The notes beneath the pieces are model-generated. The model was given only the letters and a program-made list of their open reading frames with translations, was not told the DNA's origin and did not search any database. A stretch of DNA of 64,000 nt, taken from contig CAMDHZ010000003.1 of NCBI GenBank assembly GCA_945898275.1, positions 1 through 64,000 of the forward strand. The letters are read 5' to 3'. Below, piece by piece: positions 38,595 to 47,275 of the stretch. Source of the stretch: Chitinophaga pinensis (lineage in GTDB: Bacteria; Bacteroidota; Bacteroidia; UKL13-3). Position 1 is the stretch's first letter, and each line of letters starts with the position of its first letter. The position numbers and the translations under genes are program-made.

Positions 38595-38699
38595 GTAATT
38601 AAATAAAACAAAATCTAACCCAGTCAAACGTAATTTATGGATTTCAAATTATGGGGGAAAGCGGTAAAGTCGAATATATTTGACAGATTGAAATATTAT

Positions 38700-39227
38700 A
38701 TGAAAAAACTATTTATACTATTTTGCATAGTAATTCCTATCATCGGAAATGGGCAGACCATTACTGAAAATCCAATGAATCAGGAAATTCAAACATTAAA
38801 GCGCGAGTTAAAGCGTTCAAAATCTAATTTATTTGAGGCAAATAAAAAAATAACTGACCTCGAAAATAAGCTAACCGAAATTTCTCAACTTCTTATTCTT
38901 TCAATTGACAGTTTAAACAAAGTTAATATTGAAACAAAAGCAGATGTTAACAGAAATTTTGAAGTTCAAGCACAAAACGAGCGAGCAGTTAACCTAGCTT
39001 TAGATGGTTTTCAAAAGAAATTTGAGGAGCAGAATAGAACTATGGAAGGTGTAAAGGCTACTTTGGAAAAACAATGGAATCAACAATTGATTATTTATTT
39101 AGTATTGTTGTTGCTAGCTGCAGCGGGTGTATTTTTTGGAATTAGAATTAGTAATAATCAAACAATAGAAAAGTACCAATCAACTTGGGACAAATTTAAT
39201 GAATATATAATTAAGCGTAATAATTAA
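38700..39227 (+). CDS. Signal-peptide, coiled-coil, membrane-anchor protein
   Basis: From the ATG at 38700 the product is 175 aa; an earlier ATG at 38637 would add 21 residues that spoil the signal peptide. A signal sequence (MKKLFILFCIVIPIIG) leads to a periplasmic helical region of about 110 residues with coiled-coil character. A C-terminal membrane segment (LIIYLVLLLLAAAGVFFGI) and a short charged cytoplasmic tail end it. It is the first gene of the GldL/GldM-like operon, four bases before the GldL-like gene. It has no match I recognise and may be an accessory or plug-like part of the motor. Confidence 0.65.
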   Translation: MKKLFILFCIVIPIIGNGQTITENPMNQEIQTLKRELKRSKSNLFEANKKITDLENKLTEISQLLILSIDSLNKVNIETKADVNRNFEVQAQNERAVNLALDGFQKKFEEQNRTMEGVKATLEKQWNQQLIIYLVLLLLAAAGVFFGIRISNNQTIEKYQSTWDKFNEYIIKRNN

Positions 39228-39231
39228 TCAA

Positions 39232-39723
39232 ATGGCTAATAAATCTAAAGGAAAACTAAATTTAATTACCTTCTTTTACGGCTTTGGTGCAGCTGTAGTT
39301 TTAGTTGGATCCATGTTCAAGTTTGTGGATTGGGACTTTGCCAATGAATTGTTCATTGCAGGTTTATCTATTGAAGTTCTTGTTTTTTTAGTATCGGCGT
39401 TTGAAAGAACTCATGAGGATACCGAATACGAGTGGGAAAGAGTTTTTCCGCAGCTAGCTAAAGAAGGGGAAGATAAAGCAGATATTGCGCATTACAATAC
39501 TGCTATGAATCAGTTTGGTTCAACATTAAATGAATTATCAGAGCAAATTTCTGGCTTAAATAAAGCTATAGGTAGTATTAAAGATGAAATGGCTCAAAAT
39601 GCAAGTGCAAGTAAAGAAATGCATGAAAAAATGCAAGGATTTAACAAGCAAATTGGAGAGCATAATGAACATATGGAAAAAATAAATTCCAAGTACAGAG
39701 ATTTCTTATCCGGAGCTAAATAA
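39232..39723 (+). CDS. GldL-like motor stator protein
   Basis: The 163-aa protein matches GldL, the inner-membrane proton channel of the gliding/type IX secretion motor. The first helix, FFYGFGAAVVLVGSMFKF, resembles GldL's AYGxGAAVVIVGALFK. The second, AGLSIEVLVFLVSAFE, keeps E48, which corresponds to the channel glutamate of GldL (E49 in Flavobacterium johnsoniae, from memory). The segment YEWERVFPQLA matches GldL's WTLVYPELA. A long cytoplasmic coiled coil follows. It is shorter than normal GldL and has no GldK, GldN or SprE neighbour, so I read it as a paralogue. Confidence 0.85.
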   Translation: MANKSKGKLNLITFFYGFGAAVVLVGSMFKFVDWDFANELFIAGLSIEVLVFLVSAFERTHEDTEYEWERVFPQLAKEGEDKADIAHYNTAMNQFGSTLNELSEQISGLNKAIGSIKDEMAQNASASKEMHEKMQGFNKQIGEHNEHMEKINSKYRDFLSGAK

Positions 39724-39728
39724 GGGCT

Positions 39729-41129
39729 ATGGCCAGAACAATTACAATTTCAAAATCAAAAGCATTAAATTTCAAGAGGCTTGCCTTTTTGTATTTGATA
39801 TTTTTTATTTTCTTTTTTCAATCGTCTCCAGGAGAATTTGTGGTGCATTTTCAGCCCTTGTCAAAAACTCAAAGAACATTAAACACTCAACTAAGAGAAA
39901 GGTTAGATGCGGTAGAACCTATTGAGCAACAAGATTTTAATTTAAAAACGAAATCAATTGAAACATTAAACTTTTTAGACAGTTTAGAAATTCATTATTT
40001 AAAATTTAGTGAAGGGAAGACAGAAAGAAACTCATGGCTAAAAGAGCAAAAATATACGAAGCATTATATAACTAGAGATAAAATTGGAAACGCCATAAAT
40101 GATAAGCTGATGTTGCTTGTAACAGCTTTCCCTGAAAGTTACAAACCTAAACTGATTATAGACTTAGGAATAACTAATGAAGAAAGAATTGGATCAGTAA
40201 AATTTCCAAATAGATTTTTAAAGGAGGCACCAAATGGCACAGTAGGAGCAATAATTGCGCACCTAAAATTAGTGGTGCTCACCCAAACTTTACAATATTT
40301 CAAAAAGGAAATGTTGAATGCGAAGTTGGTAAATGTTTCTACAGCTTCAGACTCTGCATTACTTCAAGGATATAAAAGTAATTATTATGTTGGAGAAGAA
40401 GTAGTATTTGACTTCTTTTCTAGAGATTCAATTGAACCAATTATTTCTATAAATAATGAACGAATTAAACCTATAGTAAATGGTCGTCATTTTCTTGTTT
40501 ATTGGAATCCAAATCTACCTGGTGATTATGAATTAAAAGCCGCTGTAGACGAGGAAGGAATAACTCATTTGTTAAGTGTTGTAAAACCAGCATTAAGGTT
40601 TCTTGAAACCGAACAAGAAATTGCAGCCTATTTAAGCGAGCCATTATATTTAACATTTGATTTAAATGGTCTTGAAAAAATAAAAGACCTTAGGTTTGTT
40701 TCAAAAGGGGCTAAAGTTCAACGTAATGGCAATGTATTGACAATTACCCCTGAGTTCGAAGGAAGGTTTGAAATTGATATGCTTTCTGGGGAAATTTTAT
40801 TAGACAAAAAATCGGTGTATGCACTTAAAGGAAATCCACCAAGAGTAGCCCCTAAGGATATCGCTGGAAGAGAAACTCAGTTAAAAACAGCGCACTGTTT
40901 AGAAAGTACAAACCTAAATTGGCAAGTACTCAATTTTAATATGACACTCTGCTACCCAAATGGACGCAAAGTAGAAATGACTAGCAATACCCGTTTCTTA
41001 AGAAATGAATTAAGAACATTGGAAAGAACAGCCCCAGCTGGAAGCACATTGCTTTTTCATCATATTAGGTTAATCAATAAGAATGGCGTAAGCACAATTA
41101 TGGGAACTCCTATTTTTATAAATAAATAA
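39729..41129 (+). CDS. GldM-like protein 1 (asparagine at the Arg site)
   Basis: The 466-aa product has one N-terminal membrane helix (about residues 17-31) and a large periplasmic part, as in GldM. The C-terminal segment (FNMTLCYPNGRKVEM, then APAGSTLLFHHIRLINKNGV) matches the GldM C-terminal domain. Aligning on the tyrosine Y22, the residue eight before it, arginine 9 in GldM, is N14 here. GldM dimers pass motor torque through the periplasm. It is six bases after the GldL-like gene, and its stop overlaps the next gene's start by one base (TAATG). Confidence 0.8.
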   Translation: MARTITISKSKALNFKRLAFLYLIFFIFFFQSSPGEFVVHFQPLSKTQRTLNTQLRERLDAVEPIEQQDFNLKTKSIETLNFLDSLEIHYLKFSEGKTERNSWLKEQKYTKHYITRDKIGNAINDKLMLLVTAFPESYKPKLIIDLGITNEERIGSVKFPNRFLKEAPNGTVGAIIAHLKLVVLTQTLQYFKKEMLNAKLVNVSTASDSALLQGYKSNYYVGEEVVFDFFSRDSIEPIISINNERIKPIVNGRHFLVYWNPNLPGDYELKAAVDEEGITHLLSVVKPALRFLETEQEIAAYLSEPLYLTFDLNGLEKIKDLRFVSKGAKVQRNGNVLTITPEFEGRFEIDMLSGEILLDKKSVYALKGNPPRVAPKDIAGRETQLKTAHCLESTNLNWQVLNFNMTLCYPNGRKVEMTSNTRFLRNELRTLERTAPAGSTLLFHHIRLINKNGVSTIMGTPIFINK

Positions 41130-42499
41130 TGGCTCAATTTGAAAGGATAACACATAGTAAAAATTTGCGATTCAAGCTCATCAGCATGATGTACATTATA
41201 TTTTTTGTGCTCGCTGTAATGCAAATTCCAACTTCTTGGTTAGTTGTTACGCAACCAATGCATACTTATTTAAATCGAGCGAAGGCAAACTTAGAGGAAC
41301 CAACTCTAAATGAAATAAATACTAATATAATTGAAGTTACAAACTCTTTTAAAGAAGCTCTTGGAATGAACCAAGCTAGCAAAAAAAAGCAAGAGTTAAA
41401 GGCGTACGTGATTACAGATGACTTTTTTATTAATCAAGACAACGGTAAAATTTTATTTGCTGAACTATTAAAGTTAAAGAAGTGGGCCATTAATTTTCCT
41501 GAAAATAGCAAAACCAATAGACTATTTAACTCCCTTTTTAGTTATGATTTAAAGATTGGCCTTCAAGAAGAAAATGCAGATAAATGGACAAAAAATAAAT
41601 TTAAGCATGTTCCAGCAGAACTAGCCTTAACTTTAATGGAAGAGCTAAAGGTGAGGGTTTTATTGATGGCCCAACAAGGAAAAGTGCCAGAAGATATAAA
41701 AACAGAACCTTCTCTTAGTTTAATGACAAAATACACTAGTATGCGCGTTGGTGACTCAGCAGCATTAAATGTAAAGGGGGATAAATTAGAAAGTGTTAGT
41801 GTAACAAGGGATGAGAATTCTGTGGATGAGTTTATCCAGTTAAAAGATGGCTTAGTATTTAAACCAAAATATGCAGGAAATTATAGGATAAATGTTAAAG
41901 GAAAAAGAAAGTCTGAAAGTTTGGATATTTCTGTGTTGCCAGCTGGCTTTCCAAAAAAACAATCTTTGCCACTTAGAATTTGTTATAAAGGGGTAAATTA
42001 TACGCAAACTTTACCTTTTAAAGAGCCTGGAATGGTTGTTTCAGCTAATGCGGATAAAAACGCAAAAATTGATTCTGAAATTGGCTTGTTATCATTTAGC
42101 CCAAATAAAGAAGGCTGGTGTGCCATTGAAATTAAGTCTAACAATGGAAATGCAATTTTCTTTGACTCTGTTTTTGTAAAGCCATTACCTGATCCAAAAA
42201 TATTGGTACAAGGTTTACCCTCAAATACAATTGGCCGAAAAAGATTATCTCAACTTAAAGAACTAATTTTAACAGCTAAACATCCTTCATTTAAGGAAAA
42301 TGGTGCCTTCCAAATTTTAGCGTTTAATGTAAAGAAAATAGGTTCAGAAAATACTAGCTACCCTTCAACCGGTGATAAAATAATAGTTTCTGAAAAAGAA
42401 ATAGATGGTCTAAATTATATTTTAGTTTATGACATTCAAATTAGGATTGGAAAAGAAACCAAAAAACTGGATCAAACTTTAGTGATTCAAATCAATTAG
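41129..42499 (+). CDS. GldM-like protein 2 (arginine kept)
   Basis: The 456-aa protein is a second, divergent GldM. The N-terminus (RFKLISMMYIIFFVLAV) aligns with GldM's RQKMINLMYLV without gaps, and R14 occupies the place of the conserved arginine. The C-terminal section PLPDPKILVQG followed by NTIGRKRL corresponds to GldM's PDPxAKVxGKxxGTI region. It shares little sequence with the GldM-like protein just before it beyond this pattern, so the two are old paralogues or distinct subunits. It is translationally coupled to the first copy. Confidence 0.8.
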   Translation: MAQFERITHSKNLRFKLISMMYIIFFVLAVMQIPTSWLVVTQPMHTYLNRAKANLEEPTLNEINTNIIEVTNSFKEALGMNQASKKKQELKAYVITDDFFINQDNGKILFAELLKLKKWAINFPENSKTNRLFNSLFSYDLKIGLQEENADKWTKNKFKHVPAELALTLMEELKVRVLLMAQQGKVPEDIKTEPSLSLMTKYTSMRVGDSAALNVKGDKLESVSVTRDENSVDEFIQLKDGLVFKPKYAGNYRINVKGKRKSESLDISVLPAGFPKKQSLPLRICYKGVNYTQTLPFKEPGMVVSANADKNAKIDSEIGLLSFSPNKEGWCAIEIKSNNGNAIFFDSVFVKPLPDPKILVQGLPSNTIGRKRLSQLKELILTAKHPSFKENGAFQILAFNVKKIGSENTSYPSTGDKIIVSEKEIDGLNYILVYDIQIRIGKETKKLDQTLVIQIN

Positions 42500-42501
42500 T
42501 T

Positions 42502-44535
42502 ATGAAAAGAATTTTTACCATATTATTAGTTTTAATTACCCTTACGAATCTTAGTGTTTCTGCTCAGGATACTTTAGTAATTGAAAAAGTAAAGAAAGTA
42601 AATAAAAACCAAACACTTACCATTCTTGCTGGTACAACTGTAGTTTTTAAACCTGGTGCTATGCTTTGGGTTGAAGGAAGTTTGTCTTTTGAAGGAGAGA
42701 AAAATAAGCCAATTATATTTAAATCGTTATACCCAGAGAATCCAGGAATCGGAATAATAATTAATGGTAATGCGCCCGCCTCTAACATTGTTATTAAACA
42801 CACAGAGTTTGCAAACATAGCTAGGCCTATTAGTTTTGAGCCCTTTTGGTCTAGAAAAAGAGTCACCTTAGATAGGTTAAAAATACATGGTTCTTCTTTT
42901 AAAGAAGCTGTTATTTTTGTTGCTAATCCTTTAATTGATTTAAAATCAGAACCTATTCAATTTAAGTTAACAAATAGTGAGTTTTACAATAATCAATCTG
43001 GAATACTCATTGAAAATGCTGGGATCAAAGGGATACAATATGAATTAAATAGCCTCCTTTTTCAACAAAATAGTATCGCAGGAAATGACCCAAGTCTTGG
43101 AATTTTGCATCTTAACATTGGCCAACCTTATGCACAAGACAACCTCAAATTAGGCAATTTGGCTTTTCATGAAAATAAAGCTGGTACTACACCTATAGGT
43201 TTATCATTAAGTGGAGATAGAGCTGAAATTAATGCAAAAGGGCTTTATAGTTCAGCTAGTGAAAGACCTGTATTTGATTATCAATCAGACCCTAGATTAC
43301 CATCACTTACCTCAGAAAACTTAAATTTAAAAGATTGGCCTGAAGACTTTTGCTATATAGATTACATCAAGCATACCTCCCAAACCATTTTAGCACTTGG
43401 CTCTAAAAGTTGCGCTATTTCAAAGATTTTAGATTCAATGGGTAATTCATTAACCTTTATCCAGGCCTTCAAAATGGATTCATTATTCATTAATTATTCA
43501 GATGGTATTGCCAAAACTATGGTTATGAATAATGGGCTATTGGTTGATATCCCTTCACCCTCAGATATCAATTTGGATAGTCTTTATAAGAAGCGTTATA
43601 TAGAGGATAGAGAAAAACCAGATTCCCTCATTATTAAAGAAGACAAAAAAACCTTTCCTTCTTATGAAATCGGAGCTTGGGGTGGTTTAGCATTTTATAT
43701 TGGTGACATTAAACATAAATTTGGCATTCCTGGAACCTATGAATGGTCGGGTGGCCTATTCTTACAATACAACAGAAATCCAAGTTGGTCTTATAGAATG
43801 GCTTATTATAGAACAAACATTGGCATGCATGATCCAACTGCTCCACTTCAGGTTTGGCAAAGTTCTCCGACCTTTATAAATCAAAATGGCAATATAGAAA
43901 TGCAACAATCTTGGGCATTAAATTTTTTAACCAAAATGCAAATTTTAGATTTTGAAGCCATTTATTACTTTGCCCCTAAACACAACTATAGCCATTCTTT
44001 AGATAAAAACATAAAAGGGAAATTTGTTCCTGGATTTGGTTTTGGTGCAAGTTTTATGAAATATGACCCTTTTAGAAATGTTGTTTATAGCAGAGACAAA
44101 GGGGAGGCATCATTTGTTGAATTAAGGCCTTTAGGCACCGAGGGACAAAACTTCCTTCCAAATAAAAAGAAATATAATAGCTATACGATGAATATTAATG
44201 CTTCATTTCAATTGGCTTATTTATATAAGAACTTCAGGTTTAGGTATGAAATTAAAGCTAGCTTATCTATGTCTGATTATCTTGATGATTATGGGCAAGG
44301 CTTTACCTATGGTGGAGACTATCAAAAATGGCTAGATAGCGCTCCTGATGAGAACTTAGGGTATGATAAAACGAAAAATCGTGAAATTACCTTGGAAAAT
44401 TCTTTTCCAAACATTAATAATTCTTACAGAAGAACCACCAACCTCCTTCCGGATATGTTTTTCTCACAACACATTGGAGTAAGTTACGATTTGAGTAACC
44501 TTATTGGAAAAGTAAAGCGTTTGAAGGCTAAATAA
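42502..44535 (+). CDS. Beta-helix plus outer-membrane beta-barrel protein
   Basis: The 677-aa protein has a signal peptide ending VSAQ. Residues about 25-290 show parallel-beta-helix features (TILAGTTVVFKPGAMLWVEGSL, then repeated short strands), as in pectate-lyase-like surface proteins. Residues about 385-677 look like an outer-membrane barrel: YEIGAWGGLAFYIGDIKH and YNRNPSWSYRMAYYR, of the type found in DUF6089 proteins. It is two bases after GldM-like protein 2. I infer it is the outer-membrane partner that the motor acts on. Confidence 0.7.
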   Translation: MKRIFTILLVLITLTNLSVSAQDTLVIEKVKKVNKNQTLTILAGTTVVFKPGAMLWVEGSLSFEGEKNKPIIFKSLYPENPGIGIIINGNAPASNIVIKHTEFANIARPISFEPFWSRKRVTLDRLKIHGSSFKEAVIFVANPLIDLKSEPIQFKLTNSEFYNNQSGILIENAGIKGIQYELNSLLFQQNSIAGNDPSLGILHLNIGQPYAQDNLKLGNLAFHENKAGTTPIGLSLSGDRAEINAKGLYSSASERPVFDYQSDPRLPSLTSENLNLKDWPEDFCYIDYIKHTSQTILALGSKSCAISKILDSMGNSLTFIQAFKMDSLFINYSDGIAKTMVMNNGLLVDIPSPSDINLDSLYKKRYIEDREKPDSLIIKEDKKTFPSYEIGAWGGLAFYIGDIKHKFGIPGTYEWSGGLFLQYNRNPSWSYRMAYYRTNIGMHDPTAPLQVWQSSPTFINQNGNIEMQQSWALNFLTKMQILDFEAIYYFAPKHNYSHSLDKNIKGKFVPGFGFGASFMKYDPFRNVVYSRDKGEASFVELRPLGTEGQNFLPNKKKYNSYTMNINASFQLAYLYKNFRFRYEIKASLSMSDYLDDYGQGFTYGGDYQKWLDSAPDENLGYDKTKNREITLENSFPNINNSYRRTTNLLPDMFFSQHIGVSYDLSNLIGKVKRLKAK

Positions 44536-44716: not shown

Positions 44717-45823
44717 CTAAGGATTGCTATCAACTTTAAACTCTCTTCCATCTAATAAAATTTCGCAGAATCTATTTCTGATGATGCTATCAATAATTAT
44801 AGTATCAATTTTTTCTCCAAAAAATCTATTATATTTCTTTAATTGAATTGCCAGAAATACTTCTGAAGGATGGAATCCGTCCATAAAATAGGCATCATTA
44901 ATATCATAATCACGAGGACTTTCAGTCTTAATATATGGTATCCCAAATCTTTCTAGAATTCTTGGCATATAAATAGTTGTAAAACGAAAGAAATCGGATT
45001 GACTCTTAATCTTACCAAATAGATCAAACGATTCATCTGTAAATGGTGGCAAATAGACAATAATCCGTTTTCCGTTATCAATTGCTTTTCGAATTAGTGC
45101 CACTGATTCAATAAAAGCTGTTGTATCTATTGGCGAATTTTCAAACTTTAAGGTAGAAGATTTTTTGATTCTTTCATTTATTGGCGGGTCCTCTGTATCA
45201 ACAAATTTCCCCTCTTTAAGCAGTATCCTTATTCGTTTATCTGAAATTTTCATGCTGCCATCAAACCTAAATCCCCCGTTTGATATTTGTGCATTAACAC
45301 CAATATGTTTTGTATTTCTAGGTTCTAAGTAATCTGTCCAAATCTCATCAATTCTAGAAACGGGGTTATACCGTAATTTAAGGAGCGTATGAATTTCACT
45401 CAAATTATCGGAATTTGAATATTTCATATAATTTTCCTTGTACCACCACGAATCAATACCAATAAATATTAAATCACTTGTTACTTCACTATCTAAAAAT
45501 TCAATTAGGTCATTATTATTTTGAATCAACCCTCCCGCATTATAAAATTTACCTTTGAAATAACTTCCCTTAATTTGCATCACTCTACTTGACCCAATTA
45601 TCAATGTTTCTGCGTTGGATTGCTTTATTCCGTAAGTCTTATAAGTTTTGAAACTTTGGGACAGGTATTTACGTAAAAACAAGCTTTTATCACTTTCCTG
45701 CGACTTAAAGACGGTTTTAACCATTACAGATTCTTTCAGTTCGTACATTAAATATTCGTATCCACCAAAAAGAACAAATAAGGGAATAGAAAATAAAAAC
45801 ACATTAGATAAGAACTGCTTCAT
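44717..45823 (-). CDS. SGNH-hydrolase-like membrane-anchored protein
   Basis: The 368-aa protein has an N-terminal membrane anchor (about residues 5-27) and a periplasmic SGNH-type domain: a GSSRV block (LIIGSSRVMQIKG, about residue 75) with the likely nucleophile serine, and a C-terminal DGFHPSEV block with the Asp-His pair. It is three bases after the MBOAT gene. Such MBOAT plus SGNH pairs move acyl groups across the membrane and onto polysaccharides, as in alginate or peptidoglycan O-acetylation. The exact acceptor is unknown. Confidence 0.75.
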   Translation of the reverse strand: MKQFLSNVFLFSIPLFVLFGGYEYLMYELKESVMVKTVFKSQESDKSLFLRKYLSQSFKTYKTYGIKQSNAETLIIGSSRVMQIKGSYFKGKFYNAGGLIQNNNDLIEFLDSEVTSDLIFIGIDSWWYKENYMKYSNSDNLSEIHTLLKLRYNPVSRIDEIWTDYLEPRNTKHIGVNAQISNGGFRFDGSMKISDKRIRILLKEGKFVDTEDPPINERIKKSSTLKFENSPIDTTAFIESVALIRKAIDNGKRIIVYLPPFTDESFDLFGKIKSQSDFFRFTTIYMPRILERFGIPYIKTESPRDYDINDAYFMDGFHPSEVFLAIQLKKYNRFFGEKIDTIIIDSIIRNRFCEILLDGREFKVDSNP

Positions 45824-45826
45824 TGA

Positions 45827-47275
45827 TTAAAATTGAAAATAAATAAATTGTTGTTCCTTACCACCAAACCAAATAATTGCAAAAATTAAACAATAATAAA
45901 AAAACAATCTAATTGGCTTGTTTAATATGTTCTCTATTCGTTCTAAGGCATGTTTACCCTCTCTTCCCAGCCATTCTATTAAAACAAATGAAATTAAAAA
46001 AAATGAAACCTTCATTCCATTGAACGAATTTGGAAATGTGAGTTTATAGGAGTCATTAAAAGAGAAAATTCCATTTATATATTCAAATGCATCACCAATA
46101 TTTTCAGCTCTAAAAAAAATCCAAGCAAAAACAGATAAAGCAAATGTAAATACTATAAGCAAAAACTCCTTCAAATTAGGCAATAACTTCCCTGAAGCTA
46201 CAACACTAATATGGGCTCTATTTTTGTTAAAAAAAAGAATGGGTAAATAGTAAACTGCATTTAAAAATCCCCAAACCAAAAAAGTCCAATTTGCACCATG
46301 CCAAAACCCACTTAATAAAAATATAATGAAGATATTTCTAACTTTATTCCAAGACCCACCCTTACTTCCACCTAAAGGAATATAAACGTAATCTTTAAAC
46401 CATGAGGAAAGTGAAATATGCCATTTCCTCCAAAACTCAGCAATGTCTCTTGAAAAATAAGGAAAATCAAAATTCCTTAATAGTTCAATACCTAATAACC
46501 TAGAAATACCTAATGCTATATCTGAATACCCCGAAAAATCACAATAAATTTGAAAAGCAAATAAAATAGCTCCTACAATAAGCGTAATGCTCGAATAATA
46601 CATTGGATTATCAAATACTAAATTAACTAGCTCAAAGCAATTATCAGCAATAACAATTTTCTTAAACAATCCCCATAAAATTTGTCTTAAACCATCAATT
46701 GAATTGGCAAAATTAAATTTACGAGAAGATTTTATTTGAGGAAGCAAATGTGTGGCTCTTTCTATTGGGCCTGCAACTAGCAAGGGAAAATAACATACAA
46801 ATAAGGAATAATCTACTATATTTTCTTCAGGCTTTATTTTATTATTAAATACATCAATTATGTATGACAACCCATGAAATGTATAAAAAGATATGCCTAT
46901 CGGTAATATTACATTAATAGTGATTGGATCAACTGTAAAACCAACTTTAGAAAACAAAGCAGAAAATGATTCAGAAAAAAAATTAAAATATTTAAAAACA
47001 CCTAAGAAACCAAGATTTATAATAATACTAACCCAAAACCAAATCTTCTTAGTTTTAAGTTGTTTCGATTTAAAAATCTTCAACCCAATGAAATAATCTA
47101 AAAAAGTTGAAAACATCAATAAGAAAACAAATCTCCAATCCCAGCATGCATAAAAAAAATAGCTGGATGAAAGTAATAATCCATTCTGTATTTTTATATT
47201 TCTATTAAACACAAACCAATAACAGGCAAAAACAATCGGAAAAAAAAACGCGAAATAGCTAGTACTAAATAACAT
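45827..47275 (-). CDS. MBOAT-family membrane O-acyltransferase
   Basis: The 482-aa inner-membrane protein has about ten hydrophobic segments and the MBOAT hallmarks: FWRKWHISLSSWFKDYVYIPLG around residue 280 and the catalytic histidine in GFWHGANWTFLVWG around residue 318. It resembles AlgI/DltB proteins that transfer acyl groups through the membrane. Its own promoter lies at 47338-47367, so it and the SGNH gene may be one unit separate from the sugar genes to its right. Confidence 0.92.
   Translation of the reverse strand: MLFSTSYFAFFFPIVFACYWFVFNRNIKIQNGLLLSSSYFFYACWDWRFVFLLMFSTFLDYFIGLKIFKSKQLKTKKIWFWVSIIINLGFLGVFKYFNFFSESFSALFSKVGFTVDPITINVILPIGISFYTFHGLSYIIDVFNNKIKPEENIVDYSLFVCYFPLLVAGPIERATHLLPQIKSSRKFNFANSIDGLRQILWGLFKKIVIADNCFELVNLVFDNPMYYSSITLIVGAILFAFQIYCDFSGYSDIALGISRLLGIELLRNFDFPYFSRDIAEFWRKWHISLSSWFKDYVYIPLGGSKGGSWNKVRNIFIIFLLSGFWHGANWTFLVWGFLNAVYYLPILFFNKNRAHISVVASGKLLPNLKEFLLIVFTFALSVFAWIFFRAENIGDAFEYINGIFSFNDSYKLTFPNSFNGMKVSFFLISFVLIEWLGREGKHALERIENILNKPIRLFFYYCLIFAIIWFGGKEQQFIYFQF

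Follow-up and report, generated by a model that had tools for sequence, protein, structure and literature searches.

The stretch of DNA that was analysed (the window, 64,000 nucleotides) carries at 39232-44535 a second, non-canonical GldLM cassette, which encodes a GldL-like protein, two GldM-like proteins designated here M1 and M2, and a PorG-like outer-membrane protein. With the CC gene included, the cassette consists of five genes, all on the + strand, at window positions 38637-44535. The CC protein (38637..39227), which opens the cassette, has a signal peptide, a periplasmic coiled coil and a C-terminal membrane helix, and its true start is probably the ATG at 38700. The GldL-like ring protein of 163 aa (39232..39723) has two membrane helices and a short coiled-coil tail, and its codon at 39373..39375 specifies E48, which is invariant among the aligned homologues and is the counterpart of the channel glutamate E49. 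M1 (39729..41129; 466 aa) and M2 (41129..42499; 456 aa) are open reading frames identified by profile comparisons as GldM-like axle proteins, the first without and the second with the motor arginine. M1 begins with MARTITISKSKALNFKRLAFLY and M2 with MAQFERITHSKNLRFKLISMMY; the residues of concern here are N14 of M1 (AAT, 39768..39770) and R14 of M2 (CGA, 41168..41170). The last gene (42502..44535) encodes an outer-membrane protein with a signal peptide, a repetitive periplasmic part that is probably a beta-helix, and a C-terminal PorG/DUF6089-like barrel. Comparison of the neighbouring DNA in relatives showed that the order CC-GldL-M1-M2-OMP is kept wherever the contig is long enough.

A CC homologue was found immediately 5' of GldL in 17 of the relatives' loci, with the C-terminal membrane segment and the tail conserved. 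The tail is W.EFNEYIIKR-like, and CC was found in paired cassettes only; the protein could be an anchor or a regulator of the motor. Beyond the cassette, the window carries at 44717-47275 an MBOAT O-acyltransferase gene adjoining one for a membrane-anchored partner, in a DltD-like layout. This pair borders a probable surface-sugar gene cluster that runs on towards 63970.

Neither gldK, gldN nor porP lies beside the cassette, as judged from the gene content of the window, so that the contiguous gldKLMN arrangement of the type IX secretion core operon is lacking here (K and N are missing). A porP-gldK-gldL-gldM-gldN operon of the ordinary type is located on another contig of the same genome. Its GldM is encoded by a single-copy gene, begins with MAGGKLTVRQKMINMMY and has Arg9 and Tyr17. 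Because the ordinary operon resides elsewhere in the genome, the window cassette represents a second motor and not the secretion core.

Relationship of the cassette proteins to GldL, GldM and PorG

The cassette GldL matches Pfam GldL_N (E=2e-23) and the NCBIfam GldL model (96 bits; cut-off 68.3), as well as the GldL entries 7sau and 6ys8 in the PDB. Residues Y16, K30, E48 and E58 are invariant in an alignment of 18 homologues, so the conserved channel residues of GldL-like ring proteins are present. On these matches we regard the GldL assignment as firm. Each genome has one cassette GldL gene.

M1 and M2, as single sequences, score below the Pfam and NCBIfam cut-offs, being too divergent. When profiles were compared with hhalign, M1 aligned with canonical GldM over its full length with a probability of 95.7% (E 9e-9), and M2 likewise with 96.5% (E 9e-10), so that homology to GldM extends across the whole axle protein. 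Against solved GldM chains the M2 profile gave weak E-values (0.03-0.05); in these alignments R14 of M2 falls on residue 9 of the F. johnsoniae GldM chain in 6ys8 and on residue 8 of 7saz. AlphaFold2 models of three sequences were of low confidence (pLDDT 44 for M1, and 52) and served only to show the layout of helices and strands and as a weak check of the fold. With the poor M1 model, the best nine PDB fold matches were all GldM or PorM chains. Matches of the M2 model to Ig/Fn3 folds were set aside as a generic beta-sandwich likeness. Weak class-level matches to the M1 profile in four genomes (G230, G307, G163 and G036) proved to be small exported proteins and not motor proteins.

GldL searches of 395 class genomes and of selected families turned up an additional, short GldL in families f30, f34, f38 and f53. 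In 13/13 cases examined, the next gene encodes a single GldM-like protein that has the arginine, and a large outer-membrane protein usually comes after it where contigs permit. The single-GldM proteins match the NCBIfam GldM model over their full length (110 bits) and Pfam GldM_1st, 3rd and 4th; in hhalign comparisons they aligned with M1 at 98.9%, with M2 at 99.3% and with canonical GldM at 100%. By their profile matches they are unmistakable GldM proteins, and they bridge M1 and M2 to the family. They share with the window cassette the short GldL, the divergent GldM, the large beta-helix/PorG-like protein and the gene order; they differ from it in having one GldM, always with the arginine, and the CC gene was not seen there.

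Cassettes at L105-L110, L099 and L164-L169 make up a broader family in which a second GldL-GldM cassette lacks GldK/GldN and usually ends with a large beta-helix/PorG-like outer-membrane protein. This family may represent a reduced motor related to that of the type IX system. In one of its members (L110, genome G249) the cassette GldL gene is broken by an in-frame TGA and the adjoining GldM gene is intact. We also observed, at L100:2643-4178 and L103:4438-5793, tandem small exported proteins that carry the GldM D3-D4 signature (e.g. MNAVYIGLDNPISVAVDG) and have no GldM membrane helix.

The barrel of the cassette outer-membrane protein matches NCBIfam PorG with E=1e-8, and scores among its relatives reach 128.7 bits (cut-off 130), in the sister cassette of G139. 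The protein resembles PorG in this C-terminal barrel and differs in having an additional N-terminal domain of about 380 aa, in which one relative gave a weak match to the right-handed Beta_helix model. PorG is bound to the GldK ring through a disulfide bond of its C-terminal tail (PMC12635249). A conserved C-tail cysteine is absent from the 14 outer-membrane protein sequences, so the PorG-GldK disulfide cannot form in the same way.

The arginine position in M1, M2 and canonical GldM

The preliminary description of this DNA held that the first GldM-like protein has N14 and the second R14, in ungapped register up to Y22, and we confirmed both reading frames, the codons and the register. In each protein residue 14 lies eight residues ahead of Tyr22, and a profile-profile alignment of M1 with M2 places N14 opposite R14 without gaps; the gap-free register excludes the possibility that the asparagine is an alignment slip.

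The distribution of the two residues was examined in 64 genomes of the family (the search at the level of the order covered the identical 64). M1 was found in 21-22 of them. Among 21 readable M1 N-termini, the residue is Asn in 15, Ser in 4 and Thr in 2, and Arg or Lys in none; the corresponding M2 residue is Arg in 21/21 readable N-termini. The preliminary description had named the lack of a consistent difference between homologous pairs as grounds for giving up its proposal, and the difference is present in all 20 genomes in which both N-termini are readable. An arginine eight residues before the helix tyrosine is thus always found in M2 and never in M1, a split that is far beyond chance. 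Two details of the earlier account required revision: the contrast is between Arg and a small neutral polar residue (N/S/T), not strictly between R and N; and its "silent arginine" is a misnomer, given that M1 has no arginine at that position at all. The codons vary (AAT/AAC, AGT and ACA in M1; five different Arg codons in M2), which indicates that the constraint acts on the amino acid. Lys is one base change from AGA/AGG, yet it is absent from M1. A search of the genome contigs with the cassette GldL returned only two near relatives, both pond MAGs (G008 and G007), and all carriers known by name are uncultured MAGs.

One could envision that M1 remains a drive subunit in which K16/K17 or the N/S/T side chain replaces the arginine, so that both subunits would be active with different chemistry. 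K16 is invariant in M1, and N, S and T are able to hydrogen-bond a carboxylate. If these nearby basic residues (K16, K/R17) carried the charge, as they might, this would count against an axle with one drive site. The objection is weakened because M1 shares K16 with M2 and with canonical GldM (as K11 in the latter), where it coexists with the arginine and so is no substitute, and because position 17, often K/R, is Leu in two M1 proteins (L041 and L042). We consider a driving M1 very improbable.

Canonical GldM served as a control. Class-wide, 46 matches, three of them repeats, yielded 43 genes, and the arginine is present in 43/43. Every examined locus gave a match; therefore, none of the canonical loci was missed for want of the arginine. 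In two genomes the canonical operon (L143 in G064 and L144 in G100) contains a tandem pair of gldM genes, each with the arginine. A general tendency of duplicated GldM to lose the arginine is excluded, since these tandem copies keep it.

Origin and maintenance of the M1/M2 pair

In a maximum-likelihood tree, M1 forms one clade (support 100), M2 forms another (100), and the two are sisters (SH-aLRT 94); M1, M2 and the single-GldM form together are split from canonical GldM (99). That M1 and M2 are sisters hangs on two long stems and could be an attraction artefact. When either M1 or M2 was removed, the other still grouped with the single-GldM form rather than canonical GldM. The simplest history would be one duplication of an arginine-bearing single GldM, with subsequent loss of the arginine on the M1 stem. 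Judged from these sequences, arginine is the ancestral state. Pairs occur in this order and in one MAG of f53 (G465, locus L163 on an 8.9-kb contig), which carries an M1/M2 cassette of the window type; this pair reflects either horizontal transfer or a binning error. No other M1/M2 pairs were detected in two overlapping samples of 395 genomes each, one drawn from the class and one from the phylum.

When the window was compared with its nearest relative, dN/dS was 0.04 for M1, 0.06 for M2 and 0.02 for GldL. The value for M1, together with its intactness in all complete contigs, excludes the possibility that it is a decaying pseudogene; by these measures M1 is under strong purifying selection and is kept. 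Its best-conserved part is the membrane region, with a mean majority-residue frequency of 0.84 as compared with 0.56 elsewhere, from which it follows that the M1 helix retains a partner under tight constraint. In 16 of 18 genomes the stop codon of M1 and the start codon of M2 overlap (TAATG in 14, the window included, and ATGA in 2), and the remaining two have a 1-nt gap. This overlapping or 1-nt spacing suggests that M1 and M2 are probably made in equal amounts. Among contigs long enough for both, neither gene was found standing alone.

These observations bear on two other roles for M1. One hypothesis is that an M2 R/R homodimer works in the GldL ring and M1, having lost its motor role, is an accessory membrane-anchored arm outside it, functioning as an anchor or as an adaptor to the outer-membrane protein. 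M2 has every motor residue and could form such a homodimer alone, which counts against a mixed axle. In addition, M1 and M2 differ in the conserved motifs of their C-terminal halves and may bind different partners. A helix with no position inside the ring should drift, however, and that of M1 is conserved more strongly than the rest of the protein and retains Y22, K16 and the GldM register; the close 1:1 coupling of the genes also suggests equal amounts. We think that this role is unlikely. Alternatively, two homodimers might share GldL, with active M2/M2 motors and inactive M1/M1 brakes, anchors or decoys. A single GldL gene could serve both, and inactive paralogues that tune active ones occur in other protein families. 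An M1/M1 axle without a docking arginine would nevertheless be a dead motor present 1:1 with a live one, and the failure to find either gene alone also speaks against this arrangement, which we regard as improbable.

The numbers of aromatic residues in the 11 positions after the tyrosine also differ, averaging 4.6 in M1, 1.2 in M2 and 3.1 in the single form, and the mean of M1 and M2 is close to the value of the single form. This pattern, noticed post hoc, weakly suggests that a bulky helix packs against a slim one in a space formerly filled by two equal helices.

A putative motor with a mixed axle

We propose that the cassette encodes a second GldLM-type proton motor with a built-in M1/M2 heterodimer as its axle, in an obligate 5:1:1 assembly with one drive arginine, and we put the probability of this reading at about 0.62. 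A heterodimer fits the single GldL gene, the translational coupling, the inseparability of the genes, the conserved M1 helix and the asymmetry of aromatic and small residues. The ring would consist of five GldL-like subunits, and the axle of one M1 helix and one M2 helix. The M2 arginine alone would dock on the GldL glutamate E48, and the small neutral polar residue of M1 would pass the glutamates without docking. The periplasmic arms of M1 and M2 would reach the PorG-like outer-membrane protein encoded by the neighbouring gene and act directly on its periplasmic part, in keeping with the lack of a GldK/GldN ring in the cassette.

In the GldLM structure, GldM Arg9 reportedly pairs with the GldL channel glutamate; if so, the M1/M2 axle would have a single docking site. 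Flavobacterium requires the GldL glutamate, whose protonation state governs the helix contacts (PMC8986121; PMC9127263). According to the turnstile model of 5:2 motors, an axle with two equivalent sites advances in steps of 36 degrees and passes ten ions in each turn (PMC9389320). With one axle site, the same model gives five ions per turn and steps of 72 degrees. A 5:1:1 assembly with one drive site per axle would hence undergo five and not ten docking events per turn. Our tentative suggestion, which we hold to be slightly less probable than its opposite, is a one-armed 5:2 motor that takes five 72-degree steps with approximately five protons per turn, rather than ten 36-degree steps, the two-fold functional symmetry of the axle being broken.

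Like the canonical GldLM motor, the cassette has a ring protein in which the channel residues Tyr, Lys and Glu do not vary, adjacent genes, and a GldM-type axle with one membrane helix, a helical D1 and beta domains. It differs from the canonical motor in having two axle genes with the arginine in only one, in lacking gldK, gldN and porP, in the length of GldL (163 aa versus about 264), and in ending with a PorG-like protein that has an added repetitive domain. Another system with one ring protein and two different axle paralogues, AglQ and AglS, is AglRQS of Myxococcus xanthus (PMC9389320). It belongs to the unrelated MotAB family, to which the GldL/GldM family has no clear sequence homology, and AglQ and AglS both keep the ion-binding Asp, with no split into active and inactive subunits (PMC9389320). 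The cassette proteins do not have the MotA/MotB homology and the Asp in both axles that characterise AglRQS; the ring protein matches GldL, and the axle proteins match GldM. Whether AglQ and AglS form hetero- or homodimers has been raised as an open question (PMC9389320).

In the part of the open-licence literature reached by full-text search, paired GldM proteins of this kind are apparently undescribed. The retention of an active and a disarmed axle subunit across deep divergence would constitute a natural experiment on the need for both sites and on heterodimeric axles, and the cassette, whose GldLM-like motor is not tied to the secretion ring, may offer a simpler complex for purification. 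The lineage is a group of uncultured Bacteroidota in which the axle gene was duplicated and the motor probably runs on a mixed axle bearing one drive arginine rather than two.
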